Both the position numbers and the translations under genes were made by a program. From Crocinitomicaceae bacterium (lineage in GTDB: Bacteria > Bacteroidota > Bacteroidia > Flavobacteriales_D > Crocinitomicaceae), in assembly GCA_017983465.1 (NCBI GenBank), contig JAGOBK010000004.1:62001-126000 (forward strand): 64,000 bases of DNA, given 5' to 3'. Positions 38,776 through 40,220 of the stretch are shown here, piece by piece; the first letter of the stretch is position 1; each line of letters starts with the position of its first letter. Below the pieces are notes generated by a model. The model worked only from the letters and a program-made list of their open reading frames with translations. It had not been told where the DNA came from and did not search any database.

Positions 38776-38789
38776 GATTTTATTCCTTG

Positions 38790-38861
38790 TAGCCCTGCCA
38801 GGAATCGAACCTGGATCGAGCGTTTAGGAAACGCTTATTCTATCCGTTGAACTACAGGGCT
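38790..38861 (-). tRNA. tRNA-Arg (anticodon CCU)
   Basis: On the minus strand this folds as a 72-nt cloverleaf. The acceptor AGCCCTG pairs with CAGGGCT plus discriminator A. The D-stem is GTTC/GAAT, and the anticodon stem AGCGT/ACGCT holds loop TTCCTAA (anticodon CCT, reading AGG). The variable loop is CGAT. The T-arm is CCAGG-TTCGATT-CCTGG. CCA is not encoded, as is usual in this phylum. A TATCTTTG promoter element lies six bases upstream, followed further upstream by tandem copies of the promoter and the 5' half. Confidence 0.95.
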
Positions 38862-39046
38862 ATGTATCAAAGATAACGCTTATTCTATCCTTCCGATTCT
38901 TCGGAAGAACTACAGGGCTATGTATCAAAGATAACGCTTATTCTATCCTTCCGATTCTTCGGAAGAACTACAGGGCTATGTATCAAAGATAACGCTTATT
39001 CTATCCTTCCGATTCGAATTACAGAGCTATGTAACAAAGTTACGCT
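38862..39046 (-). repeat. Tandem 58-bp repeats of promoter plus tRNA-Arg 5' half
   Basis: Two identical 58-bp units (38862-38919, 38920-38977), a 51-bp variant (38978-39028) and a partial fourth (39029-39046) lie directly upstream of tRNA-Arg in its direction. Read on the minus strand, each full unit carries AGCCCTGTAGTTC, then TTCCGAAGAATCGGAA in place of AAC, then GGATAGAATAAGCGT. TATCTTTGATACAT, the tRNA's own -7 element and leader, follows. The insert is a perfect 6-bp hairpin (TTCCGA-AGAA-TCGGAA). The copy stops exactly at the 5' anticodon stem. Promoter-like elements occur at 38868, 38926, 38984 and 39035. The array runs up to the stop codon of the glycosyltransferase gene. Confidence 0.9.
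38868..38875 (-). promoter_or_regulatory. Promoter -7 element (TATCTTTG) of tRNA-Arg
   Basis: TATCTTTG on the minus strand lies six bases before the mature tRNA 5' end. Identical copies at 38926-38933 and 38984-38991, and TAACTTTG at 39035-39042, repeat upstream. Confidence 0.65.
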
Positions 39047-40220
39047 ATTTCTCTGCTAACACCTCCCAAACTTGATTCGCGGCAAGGTCCCAACTGAATT
39101 GCGAAGAACGGTCCAATGCTTTTTCTGATAAACTTGAATGTAGGGCCGAATCGTCAGCCAATTGGCTCATTTTTTCGGTGATATCATTTACAGAAAATGG
39201 ATCACAATAAATGGCTGAATCTCCAGCGATTTCAGGTAGGCAACTGGCATTCGCACTGAGGATTGGTACGCCACAGCGCATTGCTTCTATTAACGGAATA
39301 CCAAATCCTTCAAAGTAAGGAACGTAGCTTAACGCAAATGCGGCTCCTGTTACGCGACTTAATTCATTCGTTGATAAATGACCTAGAAAATGAACTCGTG
39401 CTTTGGTTTCTTTTGAAAGTTTGAATTCTTCTTGCTTCCACATCGCGTTTCCAACAATGACTAAATCGATCTCTGAATTGGTCAAACTAAATGCTGTAAA
39501 AGCCTGAACCAAACGCTGTACATTCTTTCGTGGATGCAAGGATCCAACAAAGATAAAGTATGGTTTCCCATTTGAATATTGGTGACGCGTTTCTGAGATT
39601 TTATCTGAAGTCAGGATTCGGTAATCCTCACTGATGCCATTGTAAACAACAGAGATTTTGTTGCTCGGAATATCATAGGTTTCAACGATGTCCTTTTTGG
39701 AAAAGTTCGAAACAGTTAAAATATGCTTCGCTTTCCGAGCAAATTTTGGGTAAAAACTGCGAAAATATAGTGATACAAGCCAAGGTAAGTCTTTTGGATA
39801 ATGTTCGAAGTTTAGATCGTGAATGGTAGCAACTTGCGGGACCTTGGAACCCAGTGAGCAAAAGCCATCTGGAGACCAAAGAAGATCGATTCGGTATTTT
39901 TTCATCGCCCTCTTCAAACTCCATTCAAACCAAAGTATCCACAAAAGTGGATGTCTCGTTGGAGGAAATAACACGACGGTTTTCACATTGTCCGGAAAGA
40001 CAAATTTCGGATCAACGGAACGATCGAAAAATAACACAAAGGATTGTTCAGGATGGTTTACAGCGATTCGTTTAACGAGTTCGTAGGAGTAATTTCCAAA
40101 ACCTTCCATTTTGGATCCAAGTATATTTCGTGCGTTAATTCCTATGATCAAAATCCTAGAATTGATGGATGTAATTCGTTCTTTTTTCTTGTCCAATGGT
40201 AGTTTCTGGACCATGTCCAC
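39045..40220 (-). CDS. Glycosyltransferase family 4 protein
   Basis: This frame of up to 391 residues encodes a GT-B glycosyltransferase with GT4 features: FGNYSYELVKRIA near the start and KHILTVSNFSKKDIVETY in the middle. GKPYFIFVGSLHPRKNVQRL and the catalytic-region FEGFGIPLIEAMRCGVP follow, with E-x7-E present. It would add a sugar from a nucleotide donor to a surface glycan. The first 22 residues precede the usual start (ILIIGINARN) and overlap the upstream MBL gene by 65 bases, so the true start may be a later non-ATG codon near 40150. It ends in the tRNA repeat region. Confidence 0.85.
   Translation of the reverse strand: MDMVQKLPLDKKKERITSINSRILIIGINARNILGSKMEGFGNYSYELVKRIAVNHPEQSFVLFFDRSVDPKFVFPDNVKTVVLFPPTRHPLLWILWFEWSLKRAMKKYRIDLLWSPDGFCSLGSKVPQVATIHDLNFEHYPKDLPWLVSLYFRSFYPKFARKAKHILTVSNFSKKDIVETYDIPSNKISVVYNGISEDYRILTSDKISETRHQYSNGKPYFIFVGSLHPRKNVQRLVQAFTAFSLTNSEIDLVIVGNAMWKQEEFKLSKETKARVHFLGHLSTNELSRVTGAAFALSYVPYFEGFGIPLIEAMRCGVPILSANASCLPEIAGDSAIYCDPFSVNDITEKMSQLADDSALHSSLSEKALDRSSQFSWDLAANQVWEVLAEK

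Follow-up and report, generated by a model that had tools for sequence, protein, structure and literature searches.

Why should the only tRNA of its kind in a genome be preceded by a series of broken copies of itself? In the window, by which we mean the whole stretch of 64,000 nucleotides that was analysed, the tRNA-Arg(CCU) gene is the sole CCU tRNA in the genome tRNA list, and directly upstream of it lies an array of repeated units (Table 1). Each of these units combines a promoter-like element, a leader and the front half of the same tRNA, and the genome-wide search found the array once in the 2.56-Mb genome.

The anatomy of the array can be described in some detail. Tandem Repeats Finder reported a period of 58 bp with 2.9 copies, a 100% match and a score of 334 at positions 38849-39015, and a repeat search gave spacings of 58, 58 and 51, which confirms an earlier description of this DNA as containing, upstream of the tRNA, a pair of identical 58-bp units and a 51-bp variant. 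Read in the tRNA direction, copies of tRNA nucleotide 1 are located at 39028 in the 51-bp variant and at 38977 and 38919 in the identical units, followed by the start of the intact tRNA at 38861. The copies are front halves in direct succession, in agreement with the claim that the 5' half rather than the 3' half is duplicated. In both identical units, TTCCGA-AGAA-TCGGAA (TTCCGAAGAATCGGAA) stands in place of the D-loop AAC, and the insert and its neighbours form a 10-bp hairpin (z = -5.8 against mononucleotide shuffles), whereas the 51-bp variant contains GAATCGGAA only and lacks a strong hairpin (z = -1.6 in the shuffle test). The earlier note describes the array accurately, and only its span needs a small adjustment, from 38862-39046 to 38862-39042, since the glycosyltransferase gene upstream has its stop codon at 39045-39047. 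Nothing but RF00005 at the intact tRNA scored above the gathering score in Rfam 15.

Table 1. Features of the tRNA-Arg(CCU) locus, in positions of the window.
Feature	Position	Strand	Evidence
Intact tRNA-Arg(CCU)	38789-38861	-	ARAGORN; Rfam RF00005, 64.4 bits; genome tRNA list
Unit 1, 58 bp: tRNA front end (nucleotide 1 to the 5' anticodon stem) with D-loop hairpin, followed by the TATCTTTG element and the next copy's leader	38862-38919	-	
TATCTTTG element nearest to the intact tRNA, without upstream TTG	38868-38875	-	
Extended D-arm hairpin of unit 1 (GTTCTTCCGA-AGAA-TCGGAAGGAT)	38887-38910	-	
Unit 2, 58 bp, identical in sequence to unit 1	38920-38977	-	
TATCTTTG element, copy 2, without upstream TTG	38926-38933	-	
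Extended D-arm hairpin of unit 2	38945-38968	-	
Unit 3, 51-bp variant (AGCTCTGTAATTC-GAATCGGAA-GGATAGAATAAGCGTT...), without strong hairpin	38978-39028	-	
TATCTTTG element, copy 3, without upstream TTG	38984-38991	-	
GAATCGGAA, insert of unit 3, left arm absent	39007-39015	-	sequence; alignment
Outermost promoter element TAACTTTG with leader TTACAT	39029-39042	-	
Glycosyltransferase gene directly upstream of the array	39045-40220	-	Pfam Glycos_transf_1, E 1.5e-27

The four elements of the form TAnnTTTG in the array start at 38875, 38933 and 38991 (TATCTTTG) and at 39042 (TAACTTTG), the last of these directly after the glycosyltransferase stop. We compared them with the Bacteroidota promoter form TTG ... 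TAnnTTTG. Among the other tRNA promoters of the same genome that contain TAnnTTTG, 17 of 20 have a TTG located 20-29 nucleotides upstream. In the array, a TTG at the usual spacing is absent from the three inner elements and present only at the outermost element (at -27). For this reason, and judging from the sequence, we think that the main transcription start, if any, would be at the outer element and that the inner elements would be weak. A sigma-70 scan of the array was discarded as being ill-suited to this phylum.

The layout is not peculiar to the tRNA-Arg(CCU) locus, and in this respect the earlier note was wrong in scope. When each tRNA locus of the same genome was checked for a copy of its first 40 bases further upstream, three more cases were identified, two at tRNA-Met(CAT) genes (L096 and L093) and one at tRNA-Arg(TCG) (L110), each having a D-arm hairpin, which brings the affected loci to 4 of about 32. 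The four hairpins have four different sequences. The tRNA-Met at L096 (G000:C10, around 158004-158279) has three units, and across the genus this locus has between zero and three units with at least three kinds of hairpin, including one genome in which three hairpins follow each other within a single D loop. The L096 units are without TAnnTTTG, a single promoter being located upstream of them all, and promoters are therefore not an essential part of such units.

Likewise, more than 100 loci in Bacteroidota show the layout. A scan of the genome collection for a front-half copy with a D-loop insert of 12-42 nucleotides, followed by an intact D arm, recovered at least 116 stretches, a lower bound that should not be read as a frequency; the matches listed include 101 from Bacteroidota and about nine from Patescibacteria. 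Among the matches listed, the affected tRNAs are those for Ala, Met, Phe, Gly, His, Asn, Trp, Arg and others, and the identity between the copy and its own tRNA is 85-96% over nucleotides 1-7, 54% at position -1 and about one third by -15, fading downstream from nucleotide 26 on. Insert arms of at least six pairs were found in 80% of these matches, as compared to 15% after shuffling. A strict pattern recovered 3 of 395 genomes in a phylum-wide sample (control 0), and the class is therefore widespread, not common per genome by that pattern. Furthermore, 38 upstream tRNA front halves were identified in 391 Cyclobacteriaceae genomes with a pattern that equally permitted a normal D loop, and 37 of the 38 contain a D-loop insert (control pattern 0); since several of these sites are orthologous, the number of independent events is smaller. 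The array in the window has the defining features of this class, namely a copy of the same tRNA from nucleotide 1 to the D stem just upstream of the gene and a D-loop insert that forms a hairpin, and we consider it to be one case of a recurrent and apparently undescribed Bacteroidota pattern. Full-text searches of open-access papers found no published description of tRNA front halves with D-loop hairpins; the earlier note, too, knew of no described system with this layout. A phage origin was also considered and rejected, the one viral contig match being unconvincing and without a hairpin insert of this type.

The hairpin inserts are often of similar sequence. In the 101 proximal Bacteroidota units among the matches listed, 59 inserts are of the form CCCGAT...ATCGGG, 6 are CCCGA...TCGGG, 3 are CCGCCGCGGCGG and 33 are others, many of which are degenerate forms. 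The usual insert is a dispersed palindrome of the TCCCGA...TCGGGA type, and CCCGATANNTATCGGG was found dispersed in six of the eight genomes tested (control 0), with 5-23 copies in at least five of the seven Cyclobacteriaceae genomes among the eight, and with zero copies in two, the genome studied here and G489. In the genome studied here, TYCCGANNNNTCGGRA is present at 4 sites, two of which are in the array (control 1), and related sites number 1-19 per genome across the genus (controls 1-2); the case for a dispersed family is therefore thin in this genome. The hairpin in the window, TTCCGA...TCGGAA, differs from TCCCGA...TCGGGA in the related genome G075 by one compensatory change from a C-G to a T-A pair, and by its sequence it looks like a member of the same type. 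The palindrome CCCGAT...ATCGGG also serves as a helix tip in the RNase P RNA gene of G804 (L355, 1122-1542), and hairpins are at times nested inside other hairpins (L141, L143, L179, L182, L213 and L218). Copies in tRNAs have duplicated flanks, whereas copies elsewhere mostly do not, with a few ambiguous cases, which fits insertions into tRNA genes that survive only beside an intact copy. One copy that the script had sorted as "other" (L184) sits in a tRNA-Leu-like D loop.

Palindromes of this kind were also seen in another arrangement. A regular array of TCCCGAAGG(G/A)TCGGGA palindromes with a period of about 52 bp is present in L387 (G030:C7:49283-49786), and a neighbouring copy lies in attagcac-type repeats (L382).

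The comparison of the locus with related genomes, suggested in the earlier note, was made in 86 genomes of the genus, the upstream sequence being read where a match existed, and front-half units were found there too, with other hairpins. The tRNA-Arg(CCU) gene follows the same glycosyltransferase gene in many members of the genus. There is one unit with the hairpin CTCCCGA-GACT-TCGGGAG in G075, one with CTCCCG-AGACT-CCGGGAG in G047, one with CCTGATG...CATCGG in both G045 and G059, and one with a degenerate hairpin in G027, and in another clade the same D arm holds a double hairpin that is unrelated to these. In two clades of the genus, the number of units ranges from one to two or more. At L013, L018 and L019 the promoter element alone is located upstream of the tRNA, with no unit, and at L016, L017 and L021 the start of the tRNA falls inside the last part of the glycosyltransferase gene, so that no promoter element separates the two. 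In the tree of a neighbouring gene, unit-bearing and unit-free genomes are sisters to each other, and units therefore come and go.

In L016, L017 and L021-L034, tRNA-Arg(CCU) starts inside the glycosyltransferase gene or directly at its stop, and in L022-L034 a conserved TAGCTTTG is found inside that gene, about 110 nucleotides upstream of the tRNA.

The stem of the insert seems to be maintained. In the leader of the Algoriphagus tRNA-Gly with a front-half copy (13 genomes), 7 of 18 consensus pairs are changed on both sides, including a copied D-stem base pair next to the acceptor side, although these compensations may represent few independent events. For eight Arg units of the genus, RNAalifold gave a weak consensus with a single two-sided change because MAFFT aligned the inserts of unequal length poorly; single-sequence folds are stable for most of them. 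Perhaps the stem is kept because the hairpin locks the broken half away, and its retention may be due either to a coupled mutational event or to selection against hairpin-free copies. More generally, tRNA-Gly(TCC) in Algoriphagus (L267-L296) has a structured 5' leader with hairpins that show compensatory changes, also in species without the front-half copy, where another small leader hairpin is present.

Predicted folding provides a further view of what the copies might do. At 94 Bacteroidota loci among the matches listed, the 3' strand is predicted to pair mostly with the copied acceptor strand. In these equilibrium nearest-neighbour predictions, which ignore tertiary contacts and co-transcriptional folding, correct acceptor pairing is 0.82 when the copy is left out and 0.29 when the native copy is present; restoring the D loop of the copy gives 0.16, and shuffling its insert gives 0.18. 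The rise to 0.29 with native hairpins (p about 1e-6) suggests that the hairpins help predicted folding somewhat on average. No such benefit was visible in the array of the window, where the predicted correct acceptor pairing for a single unit is 0.002 with the native hairpin and 0.064 once the D loop is restored. Read-through transcripts are predicted to misfold, as every copied acceptor strand is a competitor for the 3' strand of the tRNA. At L093 in the same genome, the copied half is predicted to be locked by its own complementary strand.

On balance, we consider it probable, by a small measure, that the array arose by local amplification of a hairpin-broken front half of tRNA-Arg(CCU), which is consistent with the expansion product that the earlier note had included among its readings. 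In this scheme, the promoter element, the leader and the tRNA from nucleotide 1 to the 5' anticodon stem would have been tandemly duplicated across short direct repeats. Two such repeats flank the unit, AGCGT ahead of the outermost promoter and AAGCGTT within the anticodon stem, and we infer from these sequences that they were the source of the unit ends; a duplication across them gives exactly the observed unit, and an end at the anticodon stem would then need no special mechanism. A dispersed short hairpin repeat of the TCCCGA-N4-TCGGGA type would have entered the D loop of the upstream copy, where it is tolerated because the intact gene remains downstream, and slippage would have multiplied the unit to three copies. 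A compensatory change would then have maintained the stem, probably because a self-contained hairpin lessens the competition of the half-tRNA with the real 5' half for the 3' half. The anatomy, the flanking short repeats, the recurrence over tRNAs and taxa, the dispersal of the palindrome, the patchy presence of units and the stems kept despite sequence change are direct observations, while we infer in what order the first two steps took place, that the hairpin is mobile and why the stem is kept. No movement of the hairpin was observed, and the palindrome is not found beside RAYT transposase genes.

Several other explanations can be thought of. The four TAnnTTTG elements in series could be taken to mean that the units are kept as serial promoters that raise the expression of a rare tRNA, and a local promoter could indeed be useful, given that in unit-free genomes such as G072 and G056 the last part of the glycosyltransferase gene contains the tRNA start, and the tRNA lacks a promoter element of its own immediately before it. 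However, the inner elements lack the TTG of most other tRNA promoters, the tRNA-Met units have no TAnnTTTG elements, and the predicted misfolding of the read-through RNA weakens this proposal further. We regard it as improbable and do not think that the array is an expression device for tRNA-Arg(CCU). Somewhat less unlikely, although still doubtful, is a regulatory pre-tRNA leader, in which the copied 5' acceptor strand would be under selection to rival the real one in pairing with the 3' strand, or the leader hairpins would direct RNase P processing, so that tRNA output is attenuated or tuned. The strong predicted competition, the structured and partly covarying Algoriphagus leaders, with small hairpins even where the copied half is missing, and the locked half at L093 all agree with such a role. 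Against it, native hairpins on average lower the competition when compared to shuffled inserts, the involvement of many different tRNAs and the patchy presence among close relatives are unlike conserved regulation, and the folding model leaves aside tertiary contacts and folding during transcription. A broader version, in which a 5'-half mimic with a hairpin D arm would tune maturation throughout the phylum by competing for the 3' acceptor strand, and would arise repeatedly by hairpin insertion, seems to us unlikely.

Integration sites typically show arrays of partial tRNA copies beside a tRNA, and the array might on these grounds be the scar or att site left where an element integrated by way of the tRNA 5' half. 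Yet no integrase was identified by Pfam among the six flanking genes checked, which encode a glycosyltransferase, a metallo-beta-lactamase fold protein, a secreted PKD/CHU_C protein, a lipase, an AAT-like protein and a beta-barrel protein. Only leader-length spacers separate the units, the front half is copied instead of the 3' half, no duplication of the tRNA 3' end flanks an insert, and arrays of 50-60 bp units are found at several tRNAs, all of which makes an att site highly improbable. Only slightly less remote is the idea that the hairpins are REP elements moved by a RAYT (Y1/TnpA_REP) transposase with a preference for D loops. The palindromes are dispersed, there is one Y1_Tnp gene in this genome, and GTAG is often found near the hairpin, which is due to tRNAs carrying TAG at nucleotides 8-10. 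On the other hand, among 24 Y1_Tnp loci from genomes that contain the palindrome or its relatives, not one is flanked by it, and the RAYT of this genome is flanked by a different hairpin, CCGCGGGATTGCAAATCCCGCGG; no association of the hairpin with RAYT/REP systems was found, and this origin was rejected. The single RAYT-like Y1_Tnp gene lies between two copies of CCGCGGGATTGCAAATCCCGCGG at L266 (G000:C13). An assembly artefact is the least credible explanation of all: the three-unit copy number is that of the assembly, but the same layout with other hairpins and copy numbers is present in independent assemblies, and related genomes have a single unit, differing in sequence, in the same place, which makes an error of a single assembly unlikely.

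Local amplification of a hairpin-broken front half, our preferred explanation, can also be viewed in relation to known systems. REP and REPIN palindromes, tagged with GTAG or CGTC, are short, dispersed in bacterial genomes and form hairpins as single strands (PMC3733652), and the Bacteroidetes have TnpA_REP subclasses with atypical structures (PMC6006769). The pattern resembles them in that a short palindrome is dispersed in many copies (CCCGATANNTATCGGG, although not in this genome), but it is without RAYT association, and its site is the D loop within a front half of a tRNA that has been duplicated. The Rickettsia palindromic elements, compared here by description, are palindromes inside genes for structured products, much like the RNase P RNA case in L355; here, in contrast, the hairpin-bearing tRNA copy is broken and an intact copy is kept. 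These elements are also mentioned in PMC3733652. The mobile GC clusters and double-hairpin elements of mitochondria are similar in being protein-free hairpin repeats that spread in a genome (PMC4478555, PMC5910586). They differ in belonging to another domain of life. We know of no tRNA front-half duplication among them. Finally, tRNA fragments of integrative elements are also partial copies beside an intact gene, but a 3' fragment, an integrase and a large insert are expected there, none of which is present here.

Taken in this light, the array points to a recurrent fate of tRNA genes in the Bacteroidota, in which the front half is copied, a palindrome takes the D loop and the essential tRNA survives just downstream. 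It ties dispersed palindromes of obscure origin to a preferred target, the D loop, and also to loops of other structured RNAs. Hundreds of natural cases are thereby offered for studying the spread of hairpin repeats that have no known transposase, and the ways in which cells deal with a decoy half-tRNA placed ahead of a tRNA. The findings also caution against taking such arrays for promoter amplifiers.

Some other unusual tRNA copies were seen along the way. Front-half copies similar to those described above, with other palindromes, are present in Patescibacteria (L200, L202, L203, L210, L226 and L230), several of them with a TTCACCC-like sequence after the anticodon stem. In L363 (1500-1660), two tRNA-Met-like front halves, in which the usual palindrome replaces the whole D arm, are located upstream of an intact tRNA-Met. 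Yet another tRNA-like gene in the genome studied here (L391, G000:C2:322129-322202) combines a tRNA-Val body with a different 5' acceptor strand, and is probably a chimeric pseudogene.
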